Source of the DNA: Ehretia macrophylla
Taxonomy: Eukaryota; Streptophyta; Magnoliopsida; Boraginales; Ehretiaceae
DNA length: 64,000 nt
Direction of reading: 5' to 3'
NCBI GenBank assembly: GCA_037974665.1
Contig: CM075768.1
Location: 4,428,501 to 4,492,500 of the forward strand
Notes under the pieces: generated by a model
Database searches by the model: none
Seen by the model: the letters and a program-made list of their open reading frames with translations, nothing else
What the model was told of the DNA's origin: nothing
Shown here: positions 6,160-42,894 of the stretch, one piece after another
Numbering within the stretch: position 1 is the stretch's first letter
How the letters are laid out: each line of letters opens with the position of its first letter
Program-made: the position numbers and the translations under genes

Positions 6160-6176
6160 TTCTCCCCTCCTTAAAA
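6160..6176 (-). other. Polypurine tract of E, unit 1
   Basis: The minus strand reads TTTTAAGGAGGGGAGAA directly against the LTR start TGTGAAACCCC. Confidence 0.83.
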
Positions 6177-6177
6177 C

Positions 6178-6195
6178 AATTGCGTCCGCGCAATT
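6178..6195. repeat. 18-nt inverted repeat next to PPT (E unit 1)
   Basis: AATTGCGTCCGCGCAATT has a 7-bp stem and 4-nt loop, at the same distance from the PPT as in A, B and D although E encodes no protein here. Confidence 0.8.
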
Positions 6196-8329
6196 ATCGA
6201 ACTGATAGACAATTAAATCCTCAATCGTTATACTTAACAATACTTCTCTTAGTTCTCGTTTATCTCTTAGGATGACAACTAACCAAAGATCTCAAAAGAA
6301 CGAGCTCTGTTGACTGCAAGTTGAGGATCATAGTTCCAAGACAATCTCCAATTCATAATTCTCTCCTACTTAATATCTTATTGCATATGAAAGAAATCAC
6401 AACTCCAAAGTCCTAGCATGACACCACTAATTATCAATCATCTCCTACTACACAAAAGAGTTCTATGAACACCCCGAGGGTTTAAAAACTCATTCACGAT
6501 AACATGAATGATTATTGATCAAGGAAATATCTCAAAAGTGACATTTGTCAGAATATGGCTCTTATGAAATTTACAAGGAAATAAGAGTATGGAAAGTCAT
6601 ATTCGAGCCAACAATCAAGGGAACAAGAGGTCAAACAAGTTAGAGAATCAAGAGGTTAATAGTTTAATAAGGAAGCATGATAACTAAGATAAGAAATGTC
6701 TCAGCACCTTTTAGTTAAATAAGTACGAACAAAGGATAATGGCGAGTCAAAACAGTGCTGAGTATGTTGAACAAAAATTCCTGAACAAGTAGATATTTCA
6801 ATTCTCGATGATTGTTCAAAGAACCAACAAGTAAGTTGTACTTGAGGTGAAATAAAATTAAGAGATAAGAGATGATTAATTCAATAGAAAATATGAGTGT
6901 CAAGATAATGAGTATCTCAGCACGCAATAACCAAAGAAGTACGAATAAGAAATGATAACAATAGGACAGTGCCGAGTATATTGAATGAGCAATTACAAGC
7001 AAAGTAATGACTCAAGATTTAATAATGAAACAATAGGATTAACAAGGATCAACAAGAATGACAATGATGTACTTAGGTAGAGAGTACATCAAGCAGGTGA
7101 AATTCGAATAAGTAAAATGATATACCAAAGGAAACATTACTTTCAAATGAATAGTAATAGGATGAAATGGAATATTGAAATGAATGGCTAGAGATATAGA
7201 ATGAAATATAGAAGTCTCAAACCTTAACTCCAATAAGCGACATTGCTATAAGAAACAAATATGAATGTTAAGAATAGAAGCAATGTCAAATGAGTATAGG
7301 ATCCATTAATCCAATAAGCAAAACATTCAAGAAACAATTGATATGCTAGAAAAGTGTAACTCTCTCTCAAATAAGTGAGAATAGAGTAAAAGATAATAAG
7401 ACCGATAGAATTATGAAGCACAAGAAGGGTGTCCCACCTACACACTTAAACACCAACAAGTCAAATCCTATAATCTATCTTCCTCCAAATCAAGACACTA
7501 GGAGACCTAGAGAACCTAAGGAGTCACAACAATCACCAAACAAGATAAATCACTCCAAAATTTTACATTCCGTACCAGACCAATCACCAAACAAGACAAA
7601 TCACTGATTACCCAACAAGATTCACTAATGAAGACTCCAAAATCTAATAACACACTACAGATTCATATTAACCCATTATAACACAAAAGAATCCTCAATC
7701 AACAATTTAGAAAGTCATACCACCTAGAACTCAAAAGCTTGACGTAGGTAAGTAAATGTTCAGTCACCAAAATGCATTCTTATTTCCTCAAATAATTCTA
7801 TCTCCCAACAATTACATCCTCGAATAAAGTAACTTTAGTCAAGAATCACTCCAATTGTTTCCAAGGTTTAAAGATCAAAACTCCAAAATACCCATTAATA
7901 ATATAGCAATCCCAAATAGTAGAAATATTCACATGTTGTACCACAGTTCATTCCATTCACAAATATACATCACTAATTCCTCAAATAAATTCATTCTAAA
8001 ATAACCTCAAGGCAGTATAGTATGAGTTGAGACTCCAAAAATGTCTAATCACAACCTCACAGAAACCTCAACTTATGATTCATCTCCAAGTAATAATAAG
8101 TTAAACATGGCAACAAAAGTAATTATAATCATCAAGATACGTTGCTATTTCTTCGAACAACTTCATTCTCGCTAAAGGAACATCAAGATCAATCCACTAA
8201 GCCGAAACTAAAATCCATAAACATAACAATTAAAATCTAACTGATAAACTTCTAGGATAATAATAATTCAAAATCATGGCCTATCTCTATTTCCGAAAAT
8301 TCTTATAACCACCCTAGACATTAAAAGGT

Positions 8330-8920
8330 CACTCACGAGTTAAAACATGTATGCAACTATATCATATGAAAGACAAGTATAACGTAATACACAATTATCA
8401 TACAATGCAACATTATCACATAACACACAATTCAACATATAAGAAGCCAACATCACATAAACAGGTTATATCACAGAAGTAAGTTATAAACAATTAAAGT
8501 CACATAAGCAACAAACTTCACATAAGACAAGTTGATCACGTAACTCACATTGGTCACTTAAAGTACATTGAGCACCTAAAGCACGTTGTTTCACATAAGC
8601 TAGTTATAAACAATTAAAAGCACATAAACAACTAACTTCACACAAGGCACAAAATCACATAAAACACAATTGTCACATAATACACATTAATCACATAAAA
8701 CACAATTGTCACATAATGCACATTAATCACATAATGCACATTAATCACATAATGCACATTAATTACAACACATTGAGTACGTATAGCACGTTATCACATA
8801 AAACATATTGACCACATTAGTTCACTTAACACACAAGGCATATTGGTCACATAGAAAGTTAGACACATAAGTAAATTAATCACATAAACATATTAACATA
8901 TGTTTTACTTTTCTTTCACT
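8330..8920. repeat. CACATAA-rich short repeat tract, E interior 1
   Basis: Dozens of degenerate copies of CACATAA and CACATTAA, with an 18-bp unit (ATCACATAATGCACATTA) repeated head to tail near 8690-8765. The tract lies just inside the primer-binding site, so it would be the RNA leader of the element. Interior 2 has the same tract at about 13610-14200. Confidence 0.75.
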
Positions 8921-8988
8921 TAATACATACTTGCATGCTTAGACCACTACCCACATTCCGAGGATACCCCGGCTGACAGCTAACATGC

Positions 8989-9000
8989 GCTCTGATACCA
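8989..9000 (-). other. Primer-binding site of E, unit 1 (tRNA-iMet)
   Basis: The minus strand reads TGGTATCAGAGC, seven bases from the end of LTR 2. Confidence 0.87.
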
Positions 9001-9007
9001 CTTAAAC

Positions 9008-11442
9008 TGTCACGCCCCAACTCGACCCCTCTTACAATCAGTCAGGACGCAACGGGATTTCGGCAGTATAACGACAGTAAATAGGACACCGAGGTTCCAA
9101 ACCAACCTCATTAAACATCATACATCCAGCAACTCCTTAATTCAAACAACAACATACAACACAATCATAATATACAATAAACCATCCTCGTTATACGCCT
9201 CCGTTCCAACATAACATACAATACCTCAACCTTATCATACATTTCAAAAATAAGTTGAGACATATTTACAACTTAACCGTAGACAAAAGAAAGCCACTAA
9301 GTTAACACCATTTGGATCATCATCTTCCAACATCTATTACAATAAGAACCACAAAGCATATAAAAGTCTATTAAGCTAATATACATGACATTAAACAACA
9401 TATAATCATGGATAAGACTCGGGAACATATGACTCGTCCACGTAAAGCACATTTTCCACATTCTCCTCTTCAGGAGGCACATACCCGTAATCCGGCTCTG
9501 CAACACCTGTGAGCATGCATTAATAGAGAGTGAGCTTATATCCATAAGCCCAGTGAGGATCCGATAGATCTCGACAGTATTCACTACGCTCCTTGGATTT
9601 AGTCCTTTGAGCAAGTAAACACACAACAACAATAATAACATAAATAAAGCTATCATCACATAACTATATAACCAATCAATAAGGATACTCTATTTGGTGT
9701 AGCTCCAAACGCCATCACGATCTCAACCGTTCTTCTTATAACTCCCCATTACTCACGCACCCGAGGTACCTCACTAGCCCCTTCCCTCCATGACATCTCC
9801 GTCATGCGAGCTGGGGGTAGCCTATGGCAGTCATGCCGGTTTCAACCCGACAGCCCGACGCTGCCCGAGAGGTGGCACACACATACCAAGGCTCCATTTC
9901 ATCAATAATCATGCAACCATAATTCGATCAATCAATTGGGAGATCAGCAACAAGAGTGCCCGATTCCCGCATTCAATAATAATCAATCAATAACATCAAT
10001 ATAACATCAATATTAAATTAAACAACAAACAACGTAGTTAGATGACAAAGTAGGCCATCTAACCGGACATGCATAATATACATAATTAAACTCTAAATTA
10101 CTCAACAACAACTCACCATTCATCACTCGAACACTACCCAACCATCTAAGGCATCGTTCAAGAAATTAAAGAATGACAACCTAAACTTCTAAAATTCATA
10201 ACTTACAATCTACTAATCCAAACATTGCCAAATCAGTTCCTATCACTCACCCATTCAACCTACTACATTAGCCCTCTCGGAAATCCACCATAACACCTCC
10301 AAATCATGCCCGATAACCCTAAAACCCTAAGATGTCATGGCTGGATTTTCCGGATTTTCACACGAACAATGTAATCGAAAATTCGGCATTACAACAGCGC
10401 TAACACATAATTATCAAGTATTTAGAAATCGACGGCAATCGATTTCGATCAACACAACTCATTTAATTCAACTTTGAACATTTTAATCAAAATTAAATAC
10501 CCGAAAAATAAAAATTATGCTACATCCGACAGAAACTCGTAGTATTAGTATATAATGATCCCTAGCATGCAAGGAGCAATAATCTAACATCAGATTTCAA
10601 TTCTAACGGTTCAATCTTCATTTATACGCAAAAACACAAAAATGACATTTTGAGATCTAGAATTTTTCTCTCACCTTTGATCCGAAGTAAAGCTAGGAAT
10701 GCGTGCAACAGGTGCCCAACAAGCGGAATCAAGCTCGGTTTGAAAAGATTCGGACTTTAAATGAGTTTTCTAAGGCAAAATTACTTTGAAAATAAGTTGA
10801 ATAAAATCTCTTTTTTTTCCCTAAGCTTTCACGGCTGCAAGGTGTGTGAAAATGTGGTGTTTTGCTTTGTTTCATTGTGTGTTGGTGATATATGCATGAA
10901 AGTCAACAAGTCAAATGAAAGTCAAAGTTGAAACTTTAGTATTTTTAGTGTTTTCTTGACTTTAAATGCATTTTCTTGATCACCAAAGTTCAAAACATTT
11001 ATTCAACACCCAAGCTAGCTCAAGTAAATTATTTTTAGGTGATAAGAAGTTTTACAATCAAACAATTTCACCCGAGTCGGCTTAAAACTCGATTTTCGCA
11101 AAAGTCGGTGTAAAAACCCTAATAAATTCTTAAGCCGATTTTAAAACCATTTTCATCAAACACAGGTCTATTAAAGTCCGTGGACTAGGTCTAGAAGGGT
11201 TAAAAAGACCAGTTTCAAAATTATAGCGGATGTGTTTCGAAAATACTATTCACTGAAAATCGACGATAAAATTTCTGACTCCGTTTTTGATGAAAATTTC
11301 ATGAATGCACATTTAGCACGTATTAGGAGTATTGAAATCAAAATTATAACTTTCTAGGTCCTATAGCACATAAACAGATCATATGCACGCAAAACGAGGT
11401 AAAGCACGTAAAACGAGATAAGCAGGAAAGTGGGGTTTCACA
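9008..11442 (-). repeat. E array LTR 2 (shared middle LTR)
   Basis: Complete 2435-bp LTR flanked by an interior on both sides, serving as 5' LTR for one unit and 3' LTR for the other. It has private variants (around 9541, 9905-9925 and 10355-10365) absent from LTRs 1 and 3, so it is not a simple mosaic of the outer two. Confidence 0.92.
9406..9506 (-). other. Putative LTR exon 2, acidic peptide (E LTR 2)
   Basis: Same 101-nt frame as in LTR 1, with acceptor CAG, open phase and TGA stop unchanged. Confidence 0.48.
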
Positions 11443-11460
11443 TTCTCCCCTCCTTAAAAC

Positions 11461-11478
11461 AATTGCGTCCGCGCAATT
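11461..11478. repeat. 18-nt inverted repeat next to PPT (E unit 2)
   Basis: Identical to the copy at 6178-6195; its sequence is unchanged although the flanking bases differ between the two interiors. Confidence 0.8.
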
Positions 11479-14272
11479 CTCGAACTGACAGACAATTAAA
11501 TCCTCAATTGTTACACTTAATAATACTTCTCTTAGTTCTCATTTATCTCTTAGGATGACAACTAACCAAAGACCTCAAAAGAACAACCTCTGTTGACTGC
11601 AAGTTGACGATCATAGTTCCAAGACAATCTCCAATTCATAATTCTCTCCTACTTAATATCTTATTGCATATGAAAGAAATCACAACTCCAAAGTCCTAGC
11701 ATGACACCACTAATTATCAATCATCTCCTACTACACAAAAGAGTTCTATGAACACCCCGAGGGTTTAAAAACTCAATCACGATAACATGAATGATTATTG
11801 ATCAAGGAAATATCTCAAAAGTGACATTGGTCAGAATATGGCTCTTATGAAATTTACAAGGAAATAAGAGTATGGAAAGTCATATTCGAGCCAACAATCA
11901 AGGGAACAAGAGGTCAAACAAGTTAGAGAATCAAGAGGTTAATAGTTTAATAAGGAAGCATGATAACTAAGATAAGAAATGTCTCAGCACCTTTTAGTTA
12001 AATAAGTACGAACAAAGGATAATGGCGAGTCAAAACAGTGCTGAGTATGTTGAACAAAAATTCCTGAACAAGTAGATATTTCAATTCTCGATGATTGTTC
12101 AAAGAACCAACAAGTAAGTTGTACTTGAGGTGAAATAAAATTAAGAGATAAGAGATGATTAATTCAATAGAAAATATGAGTGTCAAGATAATGAGTATCT
12201 CAGCACGCAATAACCAAAGAAGTACGAATAAGAAATGATAACAATAGGACAGTGCCGAGTACTTTGAGTGAGCAATTACAAGCAAAGTAATGACTCAAGA
12301 TTTAATAATGAAACAATAGGATTAACAAGGATCAACAAGAATGATAATGATGGACTTAGGTAGGGAGTACATCAAGCAGGTGAAATTCGAATAAGTAAAA
12401 TGATATACCAAAGGAAACATTACTTTCAAATGAATAGTAATAGGATGAAATGGAATATTGAAATGAATGGCTAGAGATATAGAATGAAATATAGAAGTCT
12501 CAAACCTTAACTCCAATAAGCGACATTGCTATAAGAAACAAATATGAATGTTAAGAATAGAAGCAATGTCAAATGAGTATAGGATCCATTAATCCAATAA
12601 GCAAAACTTTCAAGAAACAATTGATATGCTAGAAAAGTGTAACTCTCTCTCAAATAAGTGAGAATAGAGTAAAAGATAATAAGACCGATAGAATTATGAA
12701 GCACAAGAAGGGTGTCCCACCTACACACTTAAACACCAACAATTCAAATCCTATAATCTATCTTCCTCCAAATCAAGACACTAAGGAGACCTAGAGAACC
12801 TAAGGAGTCATAACAATCACCAAACAAGATAAATCACTCCAAAATTTTACATTCCGTACCAGACCAATCACTAAACAAGATAAATCACCGATTACCCAAC
12901 AAGATTAACTAATGAGGACTCCAAAATCTGATAACGCAATACAGATTCATATTAACCCATTATAACACAAGCGAATCCTCAATCAACAATTTAGAAAGTC
13001 ATACCACCTAGAACTCAAAAGCTTGATGTAGGTAAGTAAATGTTCAGTCACCAAAATGCATTCTTATTTCCTCAAATAATTCTATCTCCAAACAATTACA
13101 TCTTCAATTAAAGTAACTTTAGTCAGGAATCACTCCAATTGTTTCCAAGGTTTAAAGATCAAAACTCCAAAATATCCATTAATAATATAGTAATCCCAAA
13201 TAGTAGAAATATTCACATGTTATACCACAGTTTATTCCATTCACAAATATACATCACTAATTCCTCAAATAAATTCATTCTAAAATAACCTCAAGGCAGT
13301 ATAGTATGAGTTGAGACTCAAAAAAAATTTAATCACAACCTCACAGAAACCTCAACTTATGATTCATCTCCAAGTAATAATAAGTTAAACATGGCAACAA
13401 AAGTAATTATAATCATCAAGATACGTTGCTATTTCTTCGAACAACTTCATTCTCTCTAAAGGAACATCAAGATCAATCCACTAAGCCGAAACTAAAATCC
13501 ATAAACATAACAATTAAAATCTAACTGATAAACTTCTAGGATAATAATAATTCAAAATCATGGCCTATCTCTATTTCCGAAAATTCTTATAACCACCCTA
13601 GACATTAAAAGGTCACTCACGAGTTAAAACATGTATGCAACTATATCATATGAAAGACAAGTATAACGTAATACACAATTATCATACAATGCAACATTAT
13701 CACATAACACACAATTCAACATATAAGAAGCCAACATCACATAAACAGGTTATATCACAGAAGTAAGTTATAAACAATTAAAGTCACATAAGCAACAAAC
13801 TTCACATAAGACAAGTTGATCACGTAACTCACATTGGTCACTTAAAGTACATTGAGCACCTAAAGCACGTTGTTTCACATAAGCTAGTTATAAACAATTA
13901 AAAGCACATAAACAACTAACTTCACACAAGGCACAAAATCACATAAAACACAATTGTCACATAATACACATTAATCACATAAAACACAATTGTCACATAA
14001 TACACATTAATCACATAATGCACATTAATCACATAATGCACATTAATTACAACACATTGAGTACGTATAGCACGTTATCACATAAAACATATTGACCACA
14101 TTAGTTCACTTAACACACAAGGCATATTGGTCACATAGAAAGTTAGACACATAAGTAAATTAATCACATAAACATATTAACATATGTTTTACTTTTCTTT
14201 CACTTAATACATACTTGCATGCTTAGACCACTACCCACATTCCGAGGATACCCCGGCTGACAGCTAACATGC

Positions 14273-14284
14273 GCTCTGATACCA
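14273..14284 (-). other. Primer-binding site of E, unit 2 (tRNA-iMet)
   Basis: The minus strand reads TGGTATCAGAGC beside LTR 3. Confidence 0.87.
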
Positions 14285-14291
14285 CTTAAAC

Positions 14292-16725
14292 TGTCACGCC
14301 CCAACTCGACCCCTCTTACAATCAGTCAGGACGCAACGGGATTTCGGCAGTATAACGACAGTAAATAGGACACCGAGGTTCCAAACCAACCTCATTAAAC
14401 ATCATACATCCAGCAACTCCTTAATTCAAACAACAACATACAACACAATCATAATATACAATAAACCATCCTCGTTATACGCCTCCGTTCCAACATAACA
14501 TACAATACCTCAACCTTATCATACATTTCAAAAATAAGTTGAGACATATTTACAACTTAACCGTAGACAAAAGAAAGCCACTAAGTTAACACCATTTGGA
14601 TCATCATCTTCCAACATCTATTACAATAAGAACCACAAAGCATATAAAAGTCTATTAAGCTAATATACATGACATTAAACAACATATAATCATGGATAAG
14701 ACTCGGGAACATATGACTCGTCCACGTAAAGCACATTTTCCACATTCTCCTCTTCAGGAGGCACATACCCGTAATCCGGCTCTGCAACACCTGTGAGCAT
14801 GCATTAATAGAGAGTGAGCTTATATACATAAGCCCAGTGAGGATCCGATAGATCTCGACAGTATTCACTACGCTCCTTGGATTTAGTCCTTTGAGCAAGT
14901 AAACACACAACAACAATAATAACATAAATAAAGCTATCATCACATAACTATATAACCAATCAATAAGGATACTCTATTTGGTGTAGCTCCAAACGCCATC
15001 ACGATCTCAACCGTTCTTCTTATAACTCCCCATTACTCACGCACCCGAGGTACCTCACTAGCCCCTTCCCTCCATGACATCTCCGTCATGCGAGCTGGGG
15101 GTAGCCTATGGCAGTCATGCCGGTTTCAACCCGACAGCCCGACGCTGCCCGAGAGGTGGCACACACATACCAAGGCTCCATTTCATCAATCATCATGCAA
15201 GCATAAATCGATCAATCAATTGGGAGATCAGCAACAAGAGTGCCCGATTCCCGCATTCAATAATAATCAATCAATAACATCAATATAACATCAATATTAA
15301 ATTAAACAACAAACAACGTAGTTAGATGACAAAGTAGGCCATCTAACCGGACATGCATAATATACATAATTAAACTCTAAATTACTCAACAACAACTCAC
15401 CATTCATCACTCGAACACTACCCAACCATCTAAGGCATCGTTCAAGAAATTAAAGAATGACAACCTAAACTTCTAAAATTCATAACTTACAATCTACTAA
15501 TCCAAACATTGCCAAATCAGTTCCTATCACTCACCCATTCAACCTACTACATTAGCCCTCTCGGAAATCCACCATAACACCTCCAAATCATGCCCGATAA
15601 CCCTAAAACCCTAAGATGTCATGGCTGGATTTTCCGGATTTCACACAAACAATGTAATCGAAAATTCGGCATTACAACAGCGCTAACACATAATTATCAA
15701 GTATTTAGAAATCGACGGCAATCGATTTCGATCAACACAACTCATTTAATTCAACTTTGAACATTTTAATCAAAATTAAATACCCGGAAAATAAAAATTA
15801 TGCTACATCCGACAGAAACTCGTAGTATTAGTATATAATGATCCCTAGCATGCAAGGAGCAATAATCTAACATCAGATTTCAATTCTAACGGTTCAATCT
15901 TCATTTATACGCAAAAACACAAAAATGACATTTTGAGATCTAGAATTTTTCTCTCACCTTTGATCCGAAGTAAAGCTAGGAATGCGTGCAACAGGTGCCC
16001 AACAAGCGGAATCAAGCTCGGTTTGAAAAGATTCGGACTTTAAATGAGTTTTCTAAGGCAAAATTACTTTGAAAATAAGTTGAATAAAATCTCTTTTTTT
16101 TCCCTAAGCTTTCACGGCTGCAAGGTGTGTGAAAATGTGGTGTTTTGCTTTGTTTCATTGTGTGTTGGTGATATATGCATGAAAGTCAACAAGTCAAATG
16201 AAAGTCAAAGTTGAAACTTTAGTATTTTTAGTGTTTTCTTGACTTTAAATGCATTTTCTTGATCACCAAAGTTCAAAACATTTATTCAACACCCAAGCTA
16301 GCTCAAGTAAATTATTTTTAGGTGATAAGAAGTTTTACAATCAAACAATTTCACCCGAGTCGGCTTAAAACTCGATTTTCGCAAAAGTCGGTGTAAAAAC
16401 CCTAATAAATTCTTAAGCCGATTTTAAAACCATTTTCATCAAACACAGGTCTATTAAAGTCTGTGGACTAGGTCTAGAAGGGTTAAAAAGACTAGTTTCA
16501 AAATTTTAGCGGACGTGTTTCGAAAACACTATTCACTGAAAATCGACGATAAAATTTCTGACTCCGTTTTTGATGAAAATTTCATGAATGCACATTTAGC
16601 ACGTATTAGGAGTATTGAAATCAAAATTATAACTTCCTAGGTCCTATAGCACATAAACAGATCATATGCACGCAAAACGAGGTAAAGCACGTAAAACGAG
16701 ATAAGCAGGAAAGTGGGGTTTCACA
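14292..16725 (-). repeat. E array LTR 3 (outer, 5' LTR)
   Basis: Complete 2434-bp LTR with the acidic exon-like frame at 14690-14790. It ends TTTCACA and is followed at once by the right GGATG duplication and the rest of the D LTR. Confidence 0.92.
14690..14790 (-). other. Putative LTR exon 2, acidic peptide (E LTR 3)
   Basis: Third copy of the 101-nt phase-1 frame described at 4124-4224, with the same start, acceptor and stop. Confidence 0.48.
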
Positions 16726-19020: not shown

Positions 19021-20384
19021 TGTGACGCCCGAGATTTAGCCATGCATTTAATTACTGTTGCATCCCTTGTTTGCACATTTATTTCTGTGCCTTACTAACT
19101 GACTTTTGTGACTACTATTCACTCCATTTTTAAACTGCTTTCTATTAGTTAATTAACATTTTTATTAAATCATATTAATTGTAAAAGTAGTAGAAAAAAT
19201 GTGCATTTGAGCTAAAGGCGTTAGGAGGGCTCGTTTAGAAAATGATTTTTGTAGTTGAGTGAATAGTGTTACGTAACATAACTTAGAAATTTAATTAGCT
19301 AGCCTATGTTTTACACATTAGCCTCGTTTTGAGCTAGCAACGCGCATTAAAATAAACCACCTTAAGCACCCAAACTTAACCCACCTCAAGACTTACCTAT
19401 TAAAACATAACATAAGCACATTTTAGCACAAAACACAAAAATTTCAGCAGTGAACAGTGCCCCAAACCCGACAGCCCCTCTCTTGTGCATTTGGAGATTT
19501 TGCTTCATCAAATCATCAATTCAAGCCAAGCCAAGCCTTGAGCAACTAGTGTAGGGTGTTTGCAAGGTTCCTAGGTGCTCCTACGCGTATTGGTGAGGGA
19601 TTTCACGGCTTGTTTTTGCATTTCTAAATAGTTGTCAATTTTTTGATTTGTTGAAAATGTAATCAAATACTATTGTATGAGTTATCTATGCTAATATACC
19701 ATCTATATGAATGCTAGAGAACATATTTGAGCCGTCCTTTCGCAATTTAAACGGTTAGAATCGTTAGTTTGATTTTTAGGGTGAATAGTGACATTTTTTT
19801 TCTAGGGTTTTGTGTAATTGCTCGAATTAGCTTGATTTAATGCTCCTAATAGACGCCTTAGGTGCTAGTGAACGTAACCTAATAGCCCCGTGCACTTGCA
19901 TTGCCCTTAAATCGCCTAAAAATGGAAAATAGCCGACTTTAACTTGGGGCTTTTGGGGTTAATGCGAATCCGGGTGGATTCGGGCTTCAATTCTAGTATC
20001 CTTAGGCTACCTAGGTGCTATAGATGCCTTGATATCCCTTGTTTGAAGCCCGGACCATGTATGTGTGGTTTAAAGCCATAATAGGAAATTTGGGGCTTTC
20101 GGGGTAAACGCGGGCATTTGAATGAGTTAGAGGGTTGAGAGGGTACCTTGAGGGTTAGTTAGAAGGTTGGGAGAGTTTCCTTTGAAAATGAAATCATTAA
20201 CTTTGGTTTGGAAGAGAAATAGTTTGTAAAAGAAAGGGGTTTCAGTGCAATTTCGGTTGTCTCGCACTTCTAAACCCACGGCATGTCTTCTTGAGTGTTT
20301 ATATGTGTTATTAAGTTGATTTGGAGCTTTTGGTATAATTCTATGGCTATTTTGTAATGTCTCTTTGCAAAACTGCATATTTGC

Positions 20385-20392
20385 TTATATAA
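20385..20392 (+). promoter_or_regulatory. TATA-like box in A 5' LTR
   Basis: TTATATAA is kept at the equivalent place in A 3' LTR (37958), in both B LTRs (24685 and 32221) and in D. It is followed about 25 bp later by a block, CAACCTACTTTGTT, shared by many LTRs here. A start site just downstream is inferred, not shown. Confidence 0.5.
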
Positions 20393-20498
20393 TTGTTCTA
20401 TTCTGATTGCATCGAGGTCAACCTACTTTGTTGATCCTCATATGTGTTAATGCTTATATTATTGCTATTAACTTTCCATCGTTAAGTGCATTGCATAG

Positions 20499-20512
20499 TG
20501 GTTGCGCAACCA
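20499..20512. repeat. 14-bp LTR palindrome
   Basis: TGGTTGCGCAACCA is a perfect palindrome, also found in the B, D and A 3' LTRs and, apart from its last base context, in G near 39283. Confidence 0.7.
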
Positions 20513-20625
20513 TAGTGTCAGGGGCGGATGTGTTGAATATCGGCTGGGCGGCAGAGGGCTTGCCGGTGGATATTCAAACTCCGCACCCTATTCCCTCATT
20601 CGCCTGATCCGGAGAATGCCAGGGG

Positions 20626-21000
20626 ATGTTGGGTCGTAGGATTTGGGGTACATCCGGAGTACACCCACTGGAGTGATTGGGGTTATGTCGGCTTATCGTG
20701 ATCGTGCTCGTGGTTCGTGGATCGTGATTGAAGACCAGTGAAGATTGGTGTATAGGGGATTGTTGAAACGTATCTTTTTAAATGTGTGGTTATTTAAGTT
20801 ATCGTTGTTTCTTTAATTGTCTAAGTGTTACTGTTGTATAATTGTATTATATGTTGCATTGCACGCCCCAGGACTATATCCCTCACTGGGCAATAGTGGT
20901 TGCTCATACCTCGATATCTGTTTCAGGAGACGCTGAGGGTGATCCCCAGCTTGTTGATTTAGTTGAGGAAGAAGAAGTTCAGATTGAGCCTTTACCTTAG
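20626..21000 (+). other. Putative split LTR gene, A 5' LTR copy
   Basis: Candidate exon 1 runs from ATG 20626 to 20647 (seven codons, LGRR motif, plus one base) and ends at a GT donor at 20648. The 279-nt intron has a branch-point-like GCTCAT and ends TTTCAG at 20926. Exon 2 at 20927-21000 is 74 nt in matching phase, ends in TAG and encodes an acidic tail finishing EEEEVQIEPLP. In other copies the exon 1 frame is open for about 75 codons further upstream; here it has a TGA at 20605. No known domain is seen. A structured RNA leader is the main alternative. Confidence 0.42.
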
Positions 21001-21516
21001 TTGCTGTGCCTGATAGCTTGATGTGGTTAATGAATTTGCTGCTATGTGGAAAGTTCAACTAATTGATTTATGTACTATTTTGTGGCCTAAGGGCTATGTA
21101 TATGTTTATTGTGCAAATTGAAGGATAGTAGATTGTGGTGTAGAATTGGAAGCCATGTTTTGTAATAACTTTTATTCTTGCCTTTATTTCCTTGCATGCT
21201 TGGGAGTGGACGGTTAATGTAGAATGCATTATCCTTTAAGTTGTTTTATTGATTTCCTAGAATGTTATGATTATAAAACTATGCTAACAACAAGTTCTCG
21301 CATGCTTGTGTGTTTTGGAGCTATTGTGTACCATAAGGCTCGGATGGCCTTATAGCTATGTTGTTTAATTAAGAAAAACTTGTATTGTATTGTTGGGACT
21401 TTGTTTAAGTGTTTACAGGTTTTTGGAATGTCCACGGTACAGGGGAGACTCTGTCCGTGTGTCGGGTCTGGACTTAACCTTTAGCTTGGGGGTTGGGTCG
21501 GGGCGTGACATTTAAG

Positions 21517-21528
21517 TAGTATTAGAGC
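21517..21528 (+). other. Primer-binding site of A, mutated
   Basis: TAGTATTAGAGC differs from the tRNA-iMet match TGGTATCAGAGC at two positions, G to A and C to T, both typical of decay at methylated cytosines. Confidence 0.8.
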
Positions 21529-21868
21529 TATAGATTGCATGAAGCCGGGTTAAATTTCTCGGTCTGTGGGTAGAGATTTGTTATGTGATTTTGTGAATAC
21601 ATGAGTCCTTGATTTTGATTGACCTAAGTGAAATTTGAATAAGGAATGAACATGCTAGCATGGAAATAGAATATCAAGAGTCTAGAATGTCAAGTATGAT
21701 CTAGTGATTTATGTTTACTTCAAGAATGTGGAATATTTATTTGAACTTCTATGTACTTGACTTTGTGTGAATCTAATTGGACTTTTCTTTATGTGTTTAC
21801 TTATAAATTGCATATATATATATATATATATATACCTGTCATAATACTTTGCATTCTAGCTATTCGAG
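21529..21868 (+). other. A leader between primer site and gag
   Basis: About 340 bp of AT-rich untranslated leader. An AT dinucleotide run at about 21812-21834 is longer than the matching tract in B. No other feature is visible. Confidence 0.7.
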
Positions 21869-23568
21869 ATGGGGCCTCGCCGTCGTGCTGATAATCCGAA
21901 TGTTGGTGGAGAACCCGAGGGGGTTCATGGGCAAGAAGCTGAGGTGGCCGAAAATGCACCGCAGGTTCAAGAACCGAGCACTGCACAGATCTTGGCCACG
22001 ATGGCCACAGCTATGAACACTATCGCCCAGTTTGTTACACAACAGGGGCAGCCAGGGATCGTTGGAGGTAATCAGGCTGCGAGAGCCGGAGGTAGTGGTC
22101 CTACCGGAGGGAATCTGTATGATCGGTTTATACATCATGGGGCCTATACTTTCTTTGGGGAGCCGGACGATATGAAAGCTGAGATGTGGCTAAGGAAGTT
22201 TGAGAGAGTGGTTGCAATACTCGAGTGCCATGATGACAGGAAGATTACTTATGCTACTTTCTTTCTCGAGAGTGATGCTGAAGATTGGTGGAATACCATC
22301 AGTGAGAAATGGGGAGCTGAGGGAGGTCATCATTCGTGGGCCGACTTTGTCCGAGAATTTCGAGACAAGTATATATCGGTAGTTGCCCGCGAGAGGCGAC
22401 AAACTGAGTTCATAAACTTGAAGCAGGGAAGTATGACGGTAGATCAATACGAGGCTACTTTTACCCGGCTTTCCCGTTATGCACCAGCTTTAATTCAGCC
22501 GGAGGACATGAAGATCCAGAGGTTCATCCTGGGTTTGAGGAAGGATATTATGCTGAATTTGTCTTCAAATGATTTTCCTAACTATGCTGCAGTAATCCGA
22601 GCCGCCTCGAGATATGAGAAACGGAAGGCCGATGTGTTAGCCGAGACCAGTCAATCGAGTAAACAGTTTCAGTCTCAGAGTCAAGGGTACCAGGGGCAGG
22701 CTGTATCAGTTGGGCAGAGTTCACAGCCGAGGCAGACTCAGAGTTACACAGGGCCTACTCAGACTCAGGCACGACCAGTTCAGAGTCAGACTCAGAGTCA
22801 GTTTCGTCCAGCAGTTTCCCGTTCGCAGCAGGGTAGTTCAGCTACCTCTACTTACAGAGCTCCTTCGGGAGGCACTGTTGCAAGACGTCACCAGCAGTGC
22901 AGCTTCTGTCAGCGCCAGGGCCACACTGAGGATGTTTGTTGGAAGAAACATAACAAGTGTACAGGTTGCGGTAGTGATCAGCACAGGGTTAAAGACTGTC
23001 AGAAATTTAAGAACCCTAGGGGTCAGACATCAGCTCAGAACTCTCAGACCAGGGCACCAGCTGCAGCACCACCACCACGAGGTCAGGCCCGTGTATTTGC
23101 TTTGGATGCTGAGGAGCTTCCGGACACTACTGCTGTGGTAGAAGGTATTTTTCTTCTTAATGATCAGTCAGTTAAGGTTTTAATTGATTCCGGGGCTTCG
23201 CATTCTTTTATTACTCCTACTTGTGCACAAAATGATAAATTGAAACATGATAAATTGTTGCATGAGATTGTGGTTTATACTCCTATGGGTCCGAAGTTCG
23301 TTACTAGATCTATTTGCAGAGCATGTAGCATATTTATTGAGGGTCGTGTTTTTCCTGCTGATTTGATTATCCTACCCTTCAATGACTTTGAAATTATATT
23401 GGGGATGGACTGGTTAAGTAAATATTATGTCCAGCTTGATTGTAGAAAAAAGATTGTGTATCTAGAAATGCCTGACCAGCCCGTACTTAAAATAGTTGGT
23501 AGTAGAAAATCTACGGGAACTCCTATTATTTCTTCTATTAGGGCATCTAAATTATTGAGCAAGGGTTG
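21869..23568 (+). pseudogene. A gag-pol, first part: Gag and protease
   Basis: Begins at ATG 21869 (MGPRRRADN), the same start as in B. The order is a Gag core at residues ~95-235, a Gln/Ser-rich linker, two CCHC zinc knuckles (C-X2-C-X4-H-X4-C) and an aspartic protease with the DSGASHSFI motif and the ILGMDWL flap strand. The frame is open until B inserts in codon C of SKGC; it then reads 12 codons into the B LTR and stops at 23605. Translation resumes in the same frame after 33593, so the original gene was one gag-pol frame. Gag would form particles and bind RNA; protease would cleave the polyprotein. Confidence 0.93.
23564..23568. repeat. TSD of element B, left copy
   Basis: GGTTG, repeated at 33594-33598. 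Confidence 0.93.
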
Positions 23569-26059
23569 TGTCACGCCCCGACCCAACCCCCATGCTAAAG
23601 GTTAAGTCCGGACCCGACACACGGACAGAGTCTCCCCTGTACCGTGGACATTCTAAAAACCTGTAAATGCTAAAACAAGGTCCCAATAACACATGCAAGC
23701 TTTTCTTAATTAAACAATAAAGCTATGAGGCCATCCGAGCCTTATAGTACACAATATCTCCAAAACACACAAGCATGCGAGAACTAGTTGACAGCATAGT
23801 TTAATAATCATAACATTCTAGGAAATCAATAAAACAACTTAAGGGATGAAGCATTCTACATCAACTATCCACTCCCAAGCATGCAAGGAAATAAGGCAAG
23901 AATAAAAGTTATTACAGTTTGTAGACTTTCAAAGTCACAACCCAACCATCTAATCTTCGACTTATACAACAAGCATATACAAAGCCCTTGGGCTACAAAA
24001 TAGTACATAAAGTAATCAGATGAGTCTTCCACATAGCAACAAAATCATTAACCACCTCAAGTTATCAGACACAGCAACTAAGGTAAAGGCTCGATCTGAA
24101 CTTCTTCTTCCTCAACTAAATCAACAAGCTGGGGATCACCCTCAGCGTCTCCTGAAACAGATATCGAGGTATGAGCAACCACTGTTGCCCAGTGAGGGAT
24201 ATAGTCCCGGGGCGTGCAATGCAACAGATAATACAATTACACAACAATAACACTTTAACAATTTAAGAATCAATGATACTTAAATAACCACACAATTAAA
24301 AGGATACATTTCAACAATCCCCTATACACCCATCTTCACTGGTCTTCAATCACGATCCACGAACCACGAGCACGATCACGATAAGCCGGCATAACCCCAA
24401 TCACTCCAGTGGGTGTACTCCGGATGTACCCCGAATCCTACGACCCAACATCCCCTGGCAATCTCCGGACCAGGCGAATGAGGGAATAGGGCACGGAGTT
24501 TGAATATCCACCGGCAAGCCCTCTGCCGCCCAGCCGATATTCAACACATCCGCCCCGACACTATGGTTGCGCAACCACTATGCAATGCACTTAACGATGG
24601 CAAGTTAATAGCAATAATATAAGCGTTAACACATATGAGGATCAACAACGTAGGTTGACCTCGAGGCAATTAGCATAGAAGCAATTATATAAGCTAATAA
24701 GCAGTTTTACAAAGGGACATTTACAAAATAACCATAGAAGTATGCCAAAAGCTCCAAATCAACTTAATATCACATATAAACACTCAAGAAGTCATGCCGT
24801 GGGTTTAGAAATGTGAGACAACCGAAATTGTACTTAAACCCCTTTGTTTTTCGAACTATTTCTCTTCTAAACCAAAGTTAATGATTTCATTTTCAAAGGA
24901 AACTCTCCCAACCTTCTAACTAACCCCCAAGGTACCCTCTCAACCCTTGAACTCGATCAAATGCCCGTGTTTACCCCGAAAGCCCCAATTTCCCTCTTTT
25001 GGCTATAAACCACACCTACATTGTCCGGGCTTCAAACAAGGGATATCAAGGCATCTATAGCACCTAGGTAGCCTAAGGATACTAGAATTGAAGCCCGAAT
25101 CCACCCGGATTCGCATTAACACCAAAAGCCCCAACTTAAAGTCGGCTATTTTCCATTTTTAAGCAATTTAAGGGCAATGCAAGTACACGGGGCTATTAGG
25201 CTATCTTCACTAACACCTAAGGCATCTATTAGAAGCATTAAATCAAGCTAATTCGAGCAATTACGCAAAACCCTAGAAAAAACGTCACTATTCACCCTAA
25301 AAATTAAACTAACGATTCTAACCGTTTAAAAAGGGAAACAAGGGCTCAAATGTGTTCTCTAGCATTCATATAGATGGTATATTAGCATAGATAACAATTA
25401 CAATGGCATTTGATCACATTTTCAACAAATCAAGAAATTGACAACTATTTAGAAATGCAAAAACAAGCTATGAAATCCCTCACCACTACGCGTAGGAACA
25501 CCTAGGAGGCTTGAAGACACCCTAATCCACTTGCTCAAGGCTTGGCTTGGCTTGAATTGAAGAGTTGAAGATGGAAAAATGCTCCCAAAGGCAAATAGGG
25601 GCTGTCGGGTTTTTGGGGCTGCTGTTCAGCTTTCTATTTTTTTTTTTTTTTTTGCATTTTATGAGCTTAAATGTTAATATAAAGGGGTTAAGTTGAGGTG
25701 GGGTCCTTTGGGTGTTTAAGTGATCTAATAAAATGTGCGTAGTAAGCTTAGAAACGAGCCTAAGGTGGTAAAATATAAGCTAGCTAATTAATTACCTAAG
25801 TTAGTTACGTAACACTATTCATTCAATTACTAAAGTCATTTTCTAAACGAGCCTTCCTAACGCCTTAAGTTCAAATGCACATTTTTCCCACTACTTTTAC
25901 AATTAATATGATTTAATAAAAATGCTAATTAACTAATAGAAAGTAGTTTAAAAACGGAGTGAATAGTAGTCACAAAGTCAGTTAATAAGGCATAGAAGTA
26001 AATGCTCAAACAAGGGATGCAACAGTAATTAAATGCATGGCTAAAACCCGGGCGTCACA
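23569..26059 (-). repeat. 3' LTR of element B
   Basis: Plus-strand ends TGTCACGCCCC and GGGCGTCACA. It contains the TATA-like box at 24685-24692, the split-gene frame at 24078-24451 and a T run near 25640. Confidence 0.94.
24078..24451 (-). other. Putative split LTR gene, B 3' LTR copy
   Basis: On the minus strand ATG 24451 begins seven codons (LGRRIR motif) plus one base to 24430, then a GT donor. The acceptor CAG precedes exon 2 at 24151-24078 (74 nt, TAG stop) in matching phase. The exon 2 peptide begins DAEGDPQLVDL and ends EEVQIEPLP, as in A. Confidence 0.42.
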
Positions 26060-31098: not shown

Positions 31099-31613
31099 CT
31101 TAAATGTCACGCCCCGACCCAACCCCCATGCTAAAGGTTAAGTCCGGACCCGACACACGGACAGAGTCTCCCCTGTACCGTGGACATTCTAAAAACCTGT
31201 AAATGCTAAAACAAGGTCCCAATAACACATGCAAGCTTTTCTTAATTAAACAATAAAGCTATGAGGCCATCCGAGCCTTATAGTACACAATATCTCCAAA
31301 ACACACAAGCATGCGAGAACTAGTTGACAGCATAGTTTAATAATCATAACATTCTAGGAAATCAATAAAACAACTTAAGGGATGAAGCATTCTACATCAA
31401 CTATCCACTCCCAAGCATGCAAGGAAATAAGGCAAGAATAAAAGTTATTACAGTTTGTAGACTTTCAAAGTCACAACCCAACCATCTAATCTTCGACTTA
31501 TACAACAAGCATATACAAAGCCCTTGGGCTACAAACTAGTACATAAAGTAATCAGATGAGTCTTCCACATAGCAACAAAATCATTAACCACCTCAAGTTA
31601 TCAGACACAGCAA

Positions 31614-31987
31614 CTAAGGTAAAGGCTCGATCTGAACTTCTTCTTCCTCAACTAAATCAACAAGCTGGGGATCACCCTCAGCGTCTCCTGAAACAGATAT
31701 CGAGGTATGAGCAACCACTGTTGCCCAGTGAGGGATATAGTCCCGGGGCGTGCAATGCAACAGATAATACAATTACACAACAATAACACTTTAACAATTT
31801 AAGAATCAATGATACTTAAATAACCACACAATTAAAAGGATACATTTCAACAATCCCCTATACACCAATCTTCACTGGTCTTCAATCACGATCCACGAAC
31901 CACGAGCACGATCACGATAAGCCGGCATAACCCCAATCACTCCAGTGGGTGTACTCCGGATGTACCCCGAATCCTACGACCCAACAT
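31614..31987 (-). other. Putative split LTR gene, B 5' LTR copy
   Basis: ATG 31987, exon 1 end and GT donor at 31966/31965, acceptor CAG before 31687 and TAG stop at 31614-31616. Exon lengths and phase match the other B copy and A. This copy lies downstream of the TATA-like box in the promoter LTR of an intact element, so it is the best place to look for a spliced RNA. Confidence 0.45.
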
Positions 31988-32220
31988 CCCCTGGCAATCT
32001 CCGGACCAGGCGAATGAGGGAATAGGGCACGGAGTTTGAATATCCACCGGCAAGCCCTCTGCCGCCCAGCCGATATTCAACACATCCGCCCCGACACTAT
32101 GGTTGCGCAACCACTATGCAATGCACTTCACGATGGCAAGTTAATAGCAATAATATAAGCGTTAACACATATGAGGATCAACAAAGTAGGTTGACCTCGA
32201 GGCAATTAGCATAGAAGCAA

Positions 32221-32228
32221 TTATATAA
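32221..32228 (-). promoter_or_regulatory. TATA-like box in B 5' LTR
   Basis: TTATATAA, self-complementary, conserved with A and D and followed on the minus strand by the shared CAACCTACTTTGTT block. Confidence 0.5.
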
Positions 32229-33593
32229 GCTAATAAGCAGTTTTACAAAGGGACATTTACAAAATAACCATAGAAGTATGCCAAAAGCTCCAAATCAACT
32301 TAATATCACATATAAACACTCAAGAAGTCATGCCGTGGGTTTAGAAATGTGAGACAACCGAAATTGCACTTAAACCCCTTTGTTTTTCGAACTAGTTCTC
32401 TTCTAAACCAAAGTTAATGATTTCATTTTCAAAGGAAACTCTCCCAACCTTCTAACTAACCCCCAAGGTACCCTCTCAACCCTTGAACTCGATCAAATGC
32501 CCGTGTTTACCCCGAAAGCCCCAATTTCCCTCTTTTGGCTATAAACCACACCTACATTGTCCGGGCTTCAAACAAGGGATATCAAGGCATCTATAGCACC
32601 TAGGTAGCCTAAGGATACTAGAATTGAAGCCCGAATCCACCCGGAATTTCATTAACACCAAAAGCCCCAACTTAAAGTCGGCTATTTTCCATTTTTAGGC
32701 AATTTTAAGGCAATGCAAGTACACGGGGCTATTAGGCTATCTTCACTAACACCTAAGGCATCTATTAGAAGCATTAAATCAAGCTAATTCGAGCAATTAC
32801 GCAAAACCCTAGAAAAAACGTCACTATTCACCCTAAAAATTAAACTAACGATTCTAACCGTTTAAAAAGCGAAACAACGGCTCAAATGTGTTCTCTAGCA
32901 TTCATATAGATGGTATATTAGCATAGATAACAATTACAATGGCATTTGATCACATTTTCAACAAATCAAGAAATTGACAACTATTTAGAAATGCAAAAAC
33001 AAGCTATGAAATCCCTCACCACTACGCGTAGGAACACCTAGGAGGCTTGAAGACACCCTAATCCACTTGCTCAAGGCTTGGCTTGGCTTGAATTGAAGAG
33101 TTGAAGATGGAAAAATGCTCCCAAAGGCAAAGAGGGGCTGTCGGGTTTTTGGGGCTGCTGTTCAGCTTTCTATTTTTTTTTTTTTTTGCATTTTATGAGC
33201 TTAAATGTTAATATAAAGGGGTTAAGTTGAGGTGGGGTCCTTTGGGTGTTTAAGTGATCTAATAAAATGTGCGTAGTAAGCTTAGAAACGAGCCTAAGGT
33301 GGTAAAATATAAGCTAGCTAATTAATTACCTAAGTTAGTTACGTAACACTATTCATTCAATTACTAAAGTCATTTTCTAAACGAGCCTTCCTAACGCCTT
33401 AAGTTCAAATGCACATTTTTCCCACTACTTTTACAATTAATATGATTTAATAAAAATGCTAATTAACTAATAGAAAGTAGTTTAAAAACGGAGTGAATAG
33501 TAGTCACAAAGTCAGTTAATAAGGCATAGAAGTAAATGCGCAAACAAGGGATGCAACAGTAATTAAATGCATGGCTAAAACCCGGGCGTCACA

Positions 33594-39087: not shown

Positions 39088-40283
39088 GGTGAGAGAGTCT
39101 TCATCCTTATGTGCATAATAGTTTATTTACTTGTACATAGATTATGTGCCTTAATATAATTGTTAAACGATGTGCACTTATTATCTATATATTGTGTGTG
39201 AGGGCAACCTACTTTGTTATCCCTCAATCATGTGTTTATTGGGTTATTCTATTGTTATCATTTGAGTGCATTGCATCGTGGTTGCGCAACCATATGGGCA
39301 TGGTAGTGCCGTGGAAATCGGGCAGCATCGGGCTTACCGGTCTATCTCGGCTACCATGGTTGCCCAGTCCCTCTCTCGCTTGGGATGCCGCCCAGGGAGA
39401 GTTGGGTCGTAGGATTCGGGGTACATCCAGAGTACACCCATTTTGGAGTTATAAGGGGATGCCGGCTTATCGATAACAGTGTCATTATTACATCGGGATT
39501 TCAGTTCGTGGCTCGTGGTTCGTGATTGAAGAACAAGTGAATCGTATCCTTTTTAATGTGTTGTAACTTGTTATTTTGATTGTTCCTTAGTTGTTTTAAA
39601 TGCCTATTGAATTATCTGCTGCATTGCACGTCCTCGGTAGACCTTATCCCTCACTGACCAATTGTGATTGCTCATACCTCGCTAAACATGTTTCAGGTGA
39701 CGCAGTTGGAGGAGTTGCATTAGTTGCTGTGTCTAGTTACTTGAGGTGGACTATGTTCTTGTCGATGAGAGTAGAACTTGTTTGCTTTACTTTATGTTCT
39801 ATTTTGTAACCTAAGTGCTATGTGTATGTTATGTAGTTTGCAAATTGAAGAAGAGATGTTGTAGTCGTAGATTTGGAACCATGGCTTGTAATAACTTATG
39901 TTTCTATTTCTAGCTACTTTGCATGCTTGGGAGTGAATGTTCTGATGTATGTATGTTTTTCAATTTCTAAGAATGCTTAAAAGCTATCATGGAGTGGCAT
40001 GATAAGCGGTTTTGTAAAGAAGTTAAGTTATGAATGCCTACTTGTGTGTATCTAAACTGTTTGTATGTCTTAAGGCTCGGATGGCCTTAAAGTTGAGATC
40101 TTTATTTTGGAAATGGCTTTATTGTTGTTCTATAGCTTATTGAATGCTTACAGGTTTTCAAAATGTCCACGTTATAGGGAGACTCTGTCCGTTTTTCCTA
40201 AAATTTTGAGACCGGGTTGGAATTGGGTTGAGAATAGCTTGGTTATTAGAGCCTCCAGTTTTGTGAGGGATCGAGGCGTTACA
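39088..40283 (+). repeat. LTR G, right piece
   Basis: Continues G after A. It shows the GC-rich block, the TGGTTGCGCAACCA-type palindrome near 39283, the LGRRIRG-coding stretch followed by a GT donor near 39421, and an acceptor CAG near 39696; its exon 2 is shortened and out of phase compared with A. It ends GAGGCGTTACA at 40283, where the pol sequence of C resumes, so G sits inside C. Confidence 0.8.
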
Positions 40284-40459: not shown

Positions 40460-42894
40460 TGTGAGACCCCATATTTTGCCTAACCTCAATTTTTGTGTTT
40501 TGTCTCGTTTTGCGTGATTTGACCTGTTTATGTGTTATATGAGTCAAAATGTGTTAGAAATGTGATTTATATTCGTAATACACGCTATATGTGCATTCAT
40601 GAAATTTTTATAAAAAACAGAATCAGAAATTTTATCGCCGGTTTTAGTGAATAGTATTTTGAGCACTGTCCTCTAAAATTTTTACAGGGGTGTTTTAAAC
40701 ATTTTAAAACCTAGTCCTCGGGTATTTATAGACCCGTGTTTGATTAAAACGGATTTGGAATCGATTTTTGAATTTTAAAGGTTTTTACATTTTCTTTTGC
40801 AAGAAAATGAGTTTTAAGCCGATTCAGGCAAAAATGTTTTAATGTAAAACCCTTTGTCACCTAAAATATAATGTTTAGAATTAATTTAGGTGTCAATTTA
40901 ATAGTTGAGCAACAAATAGTCAATAAATGAATTAAAAGACTAGAAATAATTAAAAGACTAAATAAACTACTTTGACTTTCTTTTAAATTGTTTGACCTTA
41001 GCTTATATTGCATCAACACACAATAGAAAACACACAAAACACCATCACACACACACACATTCCGTGAGCCATAGGAGAGAAAAGAGAGCTTTGTTCAACA
41101 TTTTTTCAAAGCAAAATTTCATAGAAAAACCTAGTTTTTGTCCATAGCTTTTCAAACCGAGTTGGATTCCGCTTGTTGGGCACGTATTGTACTCATATCT
41201 AGGCTTGTTTCGAATCAAAGGTGAGAGAAAAATTCTAGATATCAAATGTCATTTTTTATGTTTTTGCGTGTAATTGCATTTTGAACAGTTAGAAAGTTGA
41301 ATTGAGGTTATATTATTACTCAGTGCATGCAAAGGATCGTTTATATGCGTTTATATAAGATTTGAACTGTTGTAGCAAGAATTTTTATTTTCGGGTATTA
41401 AAAGTTGAGTTATTAGCTATTTGGTGATTATTTTGAGTTATAGTAGTTGGAATCGATTGCCATCGATTTGTAAAAGTTTGTAAAATATGGGGTAGTGCCG
41501 TTGTAATGCCGAAATTTTGATTGAGATGTTGGTGCGAAAAACCAGAAATTTCAGCCTAGGTATATTGAGGTTTTAGGGCTGTTGGGCTTGATTTGGATGT
41601 ATTTTGGTTGGTTTCCGAGGGGGCTAATGTAGTTGATTAAATAAGTGAGTGATAGGAATTGGTTTAGAGTTGTTGGATTAGTAGAATGCAAGTTATGATT
41701 ATTTGAAGTTTAGGTTATCTTTCTTTAAAATATTGTTATATGCCTTTAGATGATCGGGTGGTGTTTGAGTGATTGAATTGTGAGTTGTTAATGGTTAGAT
41801 TAGGGTTTGGTTGTGTGTCTAATGCATGTTAAGTTGGGTGGCCTACTTTGTCATCTAACTTAGTTGTTTAGTTATCAATTGATTAATTGATGTTGTGTTG
41901 TTGTATTGTTATTAATTGATTGATGTATTATTGATTATTGATTATTGAATATTGATTATTGATGAACTGGGAGATAGTCAACGGAAAAGGTTGTCCTCTT
42001 GTGATTGATTGTTTATTATTATTGCTGAGTTTTGATATGCTTGTGCTACCTCTTGGGCGATATCGGGCTGTCGGGTTGAAAACGGCATGGCTATCAGAGG
42101 CAACCCTCATCTCGCATGGGCGGAGATGCCATGGAGGGCAGGGCTAGTGAGGTACCTCGGGTGTGTGTGTCATGGGGGTGATAAGAAGTTGGTTGAGATC
42201 GTGATGGCGTTTGGAGCTACACCAACTAGAGTATCCTTTATTGATTGGTCATTATAGTTATGTGCTTATATTGTTATTGATGTTTTATTGTGTGTTTACT
42301 ACTCAAAGGATCATTTCCAAGGAGTATAGTAAATACTGTTAGAGATCTATCGGATCCTCACTGGGCTTGTTTTATATAAGCTCACTCTCAATTATTGCAT
42401 GCATGCAGGTGTTACTAATTCTGACTATGGGTACGTGCCTCGTGAAGAGGAAAATGTGTTGTATGTGGATAAGTCTTATGTACAGGAGTCATCGCCATGA
42501 GATTATTTTAGTTGTTGTAAAACAATGTATTGTATAACCTACCTTAATATAAAGGCATATGTATGATGACTTAGTTGTCTTTATTTTGATCATGATTAGA
42601 TTACTAAGTTGGTTTTAATCTATTTTGAAATGTATGTATAGCCTATGTACTAAGTTGGAACGAAGGCGTATAACTATGAATGGGTTGTTGAAGGAATGAT
42701 TATTGTATAATATGGTTATGTTGTATGTTGTTAATTTAATTGAGGAGTTAATTGTTGAATGGTTTGTGGAGTTAGTTGTATGATATTGATAAGAGGTTGG
42801 TTTAGAGCCTCGGTGTCTTAATTACTGTCGTTATACTGTCGAAATTTCGTTGCGTCCTGACTGATCGTAGGAGGGGTTGAGTTGGGGCATGACA
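40460..42894 (+). repeat. 3' LTR of element C
   Basis: 2435 bp, TGTGAGACCCC to GGGGCATGACA. It is alignable to the E LTR from end to end although clearly diverged, and of nearly identical length. The exon-like frame is at 42409-42500. After its end the copia sequence continues, so C lies inside the copia element; GCAAC at 42895-42899 is the expected right TSD. Confidence 0.9.
42409..42500 (+). other. Putative LTR exon 2, acidic peptide (C LTR)
   Basis: Follows GCTCAC and a CAG acceptor. 92 nt in phase 1, ending TGA; the peptide begins GVTNSDYGYVPREEENV and ends YVDKSYVQESSP. It is three codons shorter than the E version by an in-frame gap. An ATG lies three codons before GV in frame. Confidence 0.5.

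Follow-up and report, generated by a model that had tools for sequence, protein, structure and literature searches.

Partly spliced transcripts have been described for several plant LTR retrotransposons, namely Ogre, EVADE, and the sunflower elements Tyran and Varan; as far as the accessible parts of these sources go, their introns are located in or between coding regions and outside the LTR leader (PMC12786077, PMC7730604, PMC6317226). In case of the barley Ty1/copia element BARE1, splicing of a 104-nt intron at the end of gag was demonstrated, and the part of the report available to us describes a U-rich plant intron as well as separate pools of spliced and replicating RNA (PMC3735527). According to the same part, the U-richness of plant introns exceeds that of their exons by about 15%, and DNA copies of the spliced subgenomic Gag RNA could not be amplified, BARE thus exemplifying spliced RNA that is not copied to DNA (PMC3735527). 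The locus described here resembles BARE1 in its U-rich candidate intron, in a possible separation of RNA pools, and in the zero count of spliced A-family copies, but its candidate intron is located inside the LTR and its splicing is putative. Tekay elements likewise carry additional coding sequence towards their 5′ end, and for some of their groups the accessible text reports one additional ORF of about 400 aa outside gag-pol (PMC11728184), whereas the ORF considered here comprises 20-32 codons within the LTR; no long 5′ ORF of the Tekay type (at least 150 aa) is present between LTR A5 and gag. What these partly accessible sources describe in LTR retrotransposons are long additional ORFs as well as introns situated within coding regions or between them (PMC12786077, PMC7730604, PMC7264820, PMC11728184, PMC3735527, PMC6317226), and no intron or micro-ORF inside an LTR leader was recognised among the matches listed in the open-access PMC literature. 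With its several hairpins and its palindrome, the present 5′ leader also recalls, by analogy, the leaders of Ty1 and retroviruses with their dimerisation and packaging hairpins.

The window, i.e., the whole analysed stretch of 64 kb at 4428501-4492500 of its contig, belongs presumably to a plant, judging by its retrotransposons, and contains the LTR retrotransposon element A (98.0% identity between its LTRs) and, nested in it on the opposite strand and splitting it, element B (99.3%). The frame of element B is uninterrupted over 1583 codons and, with four pieces tested, shows the domain order gag, protease, RT, RNase H, integrase, and chromodomain of Ty3/gypsy chromoviruses, with weak scores for the chromodomain (19.8 bits against a cut-off of 25.1) and for the integrase core (27.4 against 32.6). 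We presume that the name Tekay/Del applies to these elements. The primer site adjoining the LTR of B is TGGTATCAGAGC. Diverged LTRs of families C, E, F, and H with the same 3′ side occur within the window, and 20 random 10-kb stretches of the same genome (1.58 Gb, 20 contigs), from which all relatives were drawn, contributed additional A and F copies as well as families G, I, J, and K. At 3726-16725 on the minus strand, a tandem array with a period of about 5283 is made up of two internal regions and three F-type LTRs, which are about 99% alike and measure about 2434 nt each; the array apparently sits inside a C-type LTR. The D LTRs at 46752-47945 and 52953-54143 are shorter (about 1.19 kb); the one that was read contains the codons KEEVQLEELP followed by a stop, resembling the end of the acidic ORF described below, with no acceptor visible there. 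A search for known RNA families in 20000-22000 gave no match at E up to 1.

Table 1. Location of the features discussed, as positions in the window.
Feature	Position	Strand	Remarks
LTR A5 of element A	19021..21510	+	about 2.49 kb; partner LTR 36594-39082; 5-bp target repeat GTAGA
LTR B5 of element B	31105..33593	-	partner LTR 23569-26059; target repeat CAACC
TATA box TTATATAA	20385..20392	+	putative function
Hairpin 1	20414..20439	+	near the presumed RNA 5′ end; divergence drops from here on
Exon 1 of the preliminary description, 22 nt	A5 20626-20647; A3 38199-38220; B5 31987-31966; B3 24451-24430	+; +; -; -	doubtful as exon
Hairpin 4, inverted repeat	20645..20666	+	encloses the donor first proposed
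Preferred candidate intron, 157 nt	20770..20926	+	GTATCT to TTTCAG; from sequence comparison; splicing putative
Hairpin 5	20887..20906	+	covarying; 3′ arm carries the branch-point-like GCTCAT
Acidic exon 2 with stop, 74 nt	20927..21000; 38499-38572; 31614-31687; 24078-24151	+; +; -; -	
Exon-2 ORF homologue of the diverged family F (LTR F1)	42409..42500	+	

For the four LTRs of elements A and B, a split mini-gene had been proposed in a preliminary description. Its layout was recovered in all four: a 22-nt exon starting with ATG is directly followed by GTACATCC, the proposed donor, and a segment of 278 or 279 nt ending in TTTCAG leads to an in-phase, acidic exon of 74 nt. The predicted joined peptide MLGRRI[W/R]GDAEGDPQLVDLVEEEEVQIEPLP is the same in all four LTRs, and the TATA-like box is located 241 bp upstream of the ATG, close to the distance of about 240 given before. 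Exon 2 indeed follows in the exact phase in each of the four LTRs, but this is no more than expected by chance: since 17 of 45 GT sites between the presumed transcription start and 50 nt before the acceptor would join an ATG-started frame to exon 2, the phase match is a weak argument. Frame damage was scarce, with the joined frame intact in 31 of 32 A/B copies and frameshifted in one, and with the acceptor AG kept in 29 of the 31 frame-intact copies (TCAA in 2); due to the ranking of these copies by similarity to this region, however, the sample is biased toward intact copies, and we therefore rely on the four A/B LTRs, which were picked otherwise.

Splicing at the donor first proposed (position 20648) is doubtful. 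Among J-type copies, GTACATCC was found in 5 of 10; it also occurs in families A, B, C, E, and K, and is absent from G, H, I (I36), J39, and J41 among the families read. The arms of the enclosing inverted repeat vary jointly in J copies (GGGATAC/GTATCCC and GGGGTAC/GTACCCC), as judged by inspection. Strict patterns applied to 12 J-type copies found the neighbouring box in 10, the donor in 7, and the acceptor in 6; the 10 copies with the box are equally divided between GGGGTAC (5) and the -GATAC form (5), and in several of them the opposite arm is altered accordingly. The 121 nt 3′ of this donor are highly conserved and exon-like in composition, and the composition test classed 20648-20769 as not U-rich, i.e., as unlike a plant intron. 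In terms of strength the site fares better, as its match to U1 exceeds that of the alternative GTATC donor in 4 of the 5 LTRs having both (computed pairing of -5.3 kcal/mol compared to -1.3 to -4.0 kcal/mol), but distribution among families and conservation speak against it.

A different boundary is suggested by sequence divergence. Among the four A/B LTRs, variable sites amount to 5/121 before GTATC (20648-20768, 2.1% divergence), 16/112 from GTATC to hairpin 5 (20769-20880, 7.3%), 3/46 in hairpin 5 and the acceptor (3.3%), 3/74 in exon 2 (2.3%), 51/180 3′ of the stop (21001-21180, 15.1%), and 318/1364 in U3 (13.3%); 20414-20625 diverges by 4.0%. These LTRs were not chosen by similarity, the region borders were drawn after seeing the alignments, and C2 was aligned and left uncounted. 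Composition changes at the same position. In all 12 chosen LTRs, the segment from GTATC to the CAG of the acceptor, with starts set by hand (GTAAGT in H, GTATAG in I), resembles a U-rich intron between GC-richer exons, with a T content of 39-47% vs 21-32% in the preceding 120 nt and a GC content of 32-37% vs 39-56%. Because of these steps in divergence and composition, an intron, if any, is likelier to extend over 20770-20926 than over 20648-20926. The segment varies in length in K, some copies of which contain tandem duplications inside it.

The donor side of this candidate is not strong. GTATC(C/T) ranks 4 to 27 of 35-45 GT sites in nine LTRs, and except for the GTAAGT situated near the GTATC position in family H, the fit to the donor consensus is weak, while the acceptor side is conserved. 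From the GTATC donor, a frame opened by an ATG enters exon 2 only in K copies, J41, and the F copies L049 and L050. No such ATG exists in A5, E, H, I, J39, F1, F2, F4, F32, F34, F48a, and F48b, and a stop is located at or just 5′ of the junction in B, A34, A39, and G (B and G by eye). In case of K, the frame is open for 70-108 codons before GTATCC in all 21 copies read, which were picked by protein similarity (L043 at about 8930-9500, and L067-L086), and of 150 matches ranked by protein similarity, 139 have an open leader frame; the frame of J41 is unusual, being stop-free in 20 of 150 matches including J41 itself (both counted by hand). A conserved phase-1 donor in F was not retained, as three sites fit 12/12 sequences, yet the control phases 0 and 2 did equally well. 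One long exon-1 protein was not retained either: among the shared variants of K, 10 are synonymous and 24 are not, with 29% synonymous expected under neutrality, so that exon 1 of K is without a sign of amino-acid constraint.

A YAG/G acceptor occurs in every family read, and conservation of the acceptor side between families far exceeds that of its surroundings. Single copies lacking the AG are 2 of the 32 A/B copies, I39, L075 (K), and L088 (F); I39-I41 were read by eye only. Adjacent to the acceptor, hairpin 5 is formed by the arms TGGGCAAT...GTTGCTCA in A, TGAGTAAC...GTTACTCA in J39, TGAGTATACGT...GTGTATACTCA in I, and TGAGCTTA...TAAGCTCA in H. Covariation was scored for 13 chosen LTRs and then for 8, one per family; over these 8 families 55 of 56 cells are paired, and both sides changed in 3 of 7 pairs. 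Only 1 of 2000 shuffles was as good, a figure that is to be taken as a guide and not as a probability, because the sequences scored are those in which the stems had been detected. In A39, a single pair of hairpin 5 is altered in both arms. The branch-point-like sequence noticed before was confirmed as GCTCAY in the 3′ arm, the end of which lies 20-26 nt before the AG in 14 of the 19 chosen LTRs included in the hairpin search; for the remaining 5, the automatic search took another stem. A stable stem at this putative branch point could slow splicing.

Further upstream, homologues of hairpin 1 were observed in E, K, J, G, and F, in which CTACTTT is constant (CTATTTT in F2) and the arms differ yet remain largely complementary (7 LTRs). 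The palindrome GGTTGCGCAACC in the leader (20498-20514 and 39278-39294), represented by GGTTGCAACC in K, is a possible RNA dimerisation site. On the other side, TGTAATAACTT is conserved 3′ of exon 2 in A, B, C, E, and D and could be a poly(A) signal, in which case the whole element would fall inside a long R region.

Immediately 3′ of the acceptor, A (DAEGDPQLVDLVEEEEVQIEPLP), B, F (F4: VAEPDYGYVPPEEENVENVLYVDESYVPESYP), G (VVEADPLEVIEEEEQVEVFP), H (NEVMFVEYYENNPQHTGLEAPDA), and K (EEEQVQVPEDNVPNDEPLE) share an acidic ORF in the same phase; in C, E, I36, and J39 this ORF is degenerate (shortened or shifted). For three independent pairs of F, 17, 18, and 39 differences were counted at codon positions 1, 2, and 3, respectively (p=0.002), and no such bias was found in five other regions of F, namely the upstream leader, the intron-like segment, the hairpin, the pre-acceptor stretch, and the region after the stop. 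Within F, 20 of 21 pairs have a pN/pS of 0.22-0.59 and the remaining pair has 0.96; 9 nt are the sole length difference among the seven types. The codon-position test is based on F1, F2, F4, F32, F34, and F48a, leaving out F48b, L049-L054, L087-L090, and F3, the latter with a 1-nt insertion within the ORF. Between A and G, aligned codon by codon by hand, the differences are 4/8/15 by codon position with a pN/pS of about 0.37. Exon 2 of K is without codon bias (variable columns 6/5/7 by codon position, counted for 9 of the 21 copies and leaving out copies cut off, stopped or differing in length), and the A/B copies are too alike for a coding test. Thus the signature of a protein-coding small ORF, third-position excess together with low pN/pS, was detected in F and for A-G but not in K, and in the former two comparisons the acidic ORF looks coding. 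For A/B, translation of this micro-ORF is putative.

Neither the junction of the preliminary description nor the A-family GTATC junction was found as a spliced DNA copy in A-family LTRs, allowing up to 3 mismatches, vs 4,050 copies of the unspliced A-family acceptor as a control. One F and one K junction likewise yielded 0 spliced copies with up to 3 mismatches, here with no matched control and with patterns that fit a part of the subfamilies only. The intron-like segment is kept in six F copies that show other open frames. Intronless DNA copies as proof of splicing were recovered for none of the A-family, F or K junctions tried. Their absence indicates either that splicing is absent or that spliced RNA is not copied, and the zero count of the A family fits a leader that is never spliced equally well.

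As the best explanation we propose, tentatively and with a probability of roughly 0.4, a structured leader with a putative, mostly retained intron and an acidic micro-ORF. The transcribed part of the LTR would be a leader common to many related Ty3/gypsy families, with several hairpins followed by the U-rich intron-like segment and the short acidic ORF. Held in the covarying hairpin next to the YAG/G acceptor, the branch-point-like GCTCAY would keep splicing inefficient, so that unspliced RNA may stay whole as the replication template and a minor spliced fraction may be translated. That splicing takes place, which donor it uses, and that hairpin 5 regulates it is what we infer. Quite possibly, there is no splicing at all, and the leader is structured as in retroviruses for packaging, dimerisation or translation control, the acidic ORF being an uninterrupted short ORF that starts just 5′ of the acceptor-like CAGG. 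The covariation of hairpin 5, the zero count of spliced A-family copies, and the lack of strength of both candidate donors agree with this alternative, as does an unspliced in-frame ATG 9 nt upstream of the acceptor position in every F type read except F2, and further upstream in A5. However, the unspliced frame is without ATG in A3, B5, A34, A39, G34, G44, H, I36, J39, and K43, and YAG/G, the U-rich step, and the faster change of 20769-20880 would need another reason. No ATG is common between families, spliced or unspliced.

From the preliminary interpretation, the retained leader intron proposed here keeps a 3′-splice-site-like signal, seen in every family read, and an acidic ORF that is coding-like in F and A-G; exon 1 and its donor are doubtful. 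That the seven-codon exon 1 is joined at GTACATCC to the acidic exon, resulting in a 31-aa peptide, appears distinctly improbable, and this particular tiny first exon is probably not the real one: besides the patchy occurrence of the donor and the conserved, exon-like start of its intron, E lacks an ATG in this position, the joined frame is disrupted in A39, and no copy spliced at that junction was found. The largely intact joined frame of the biased A/B sample and the better U1 match are in its favour, and the 2 nt gained by exon 1 of C2 would restore the phase with exon 2 of the C type, which has itself changed phase (by eye, from two distinct C copies). Considering exon 2 as what is left of a formerly longer, older gene or as a purine-rich splicing enhancer, with the acidic frame mostly a by-product, would account for its degeneration in C, E, J39, and I36, for the GAA/GAG-rich runs in A, G, and K, and for the lack of codon bias in K, but is unlikely in view of the third-position excess in F and A-G.

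It is tempting to go beyond the mostly retained intron and to regard each LTR, including solo LTRs, as a complete two-exon micro-gene, with an acidic peptide selected across several diverged families and a branch-point-hiding hairpin that sets the ratio of spliced to genomic RNA; this we consider rather doubtful. The way in which LTR retrotransposons apportion a single RNA to translation and to replication is still an open question, and among plants it has been answered for few elements. A hairpin-gated intron inside the LTR, if true, would place this switch at a new site. Likewise, an acidic micro-ORF under selection within the LTR, with thousands of copies in the genome, would represent an overlooked class of transposon products.
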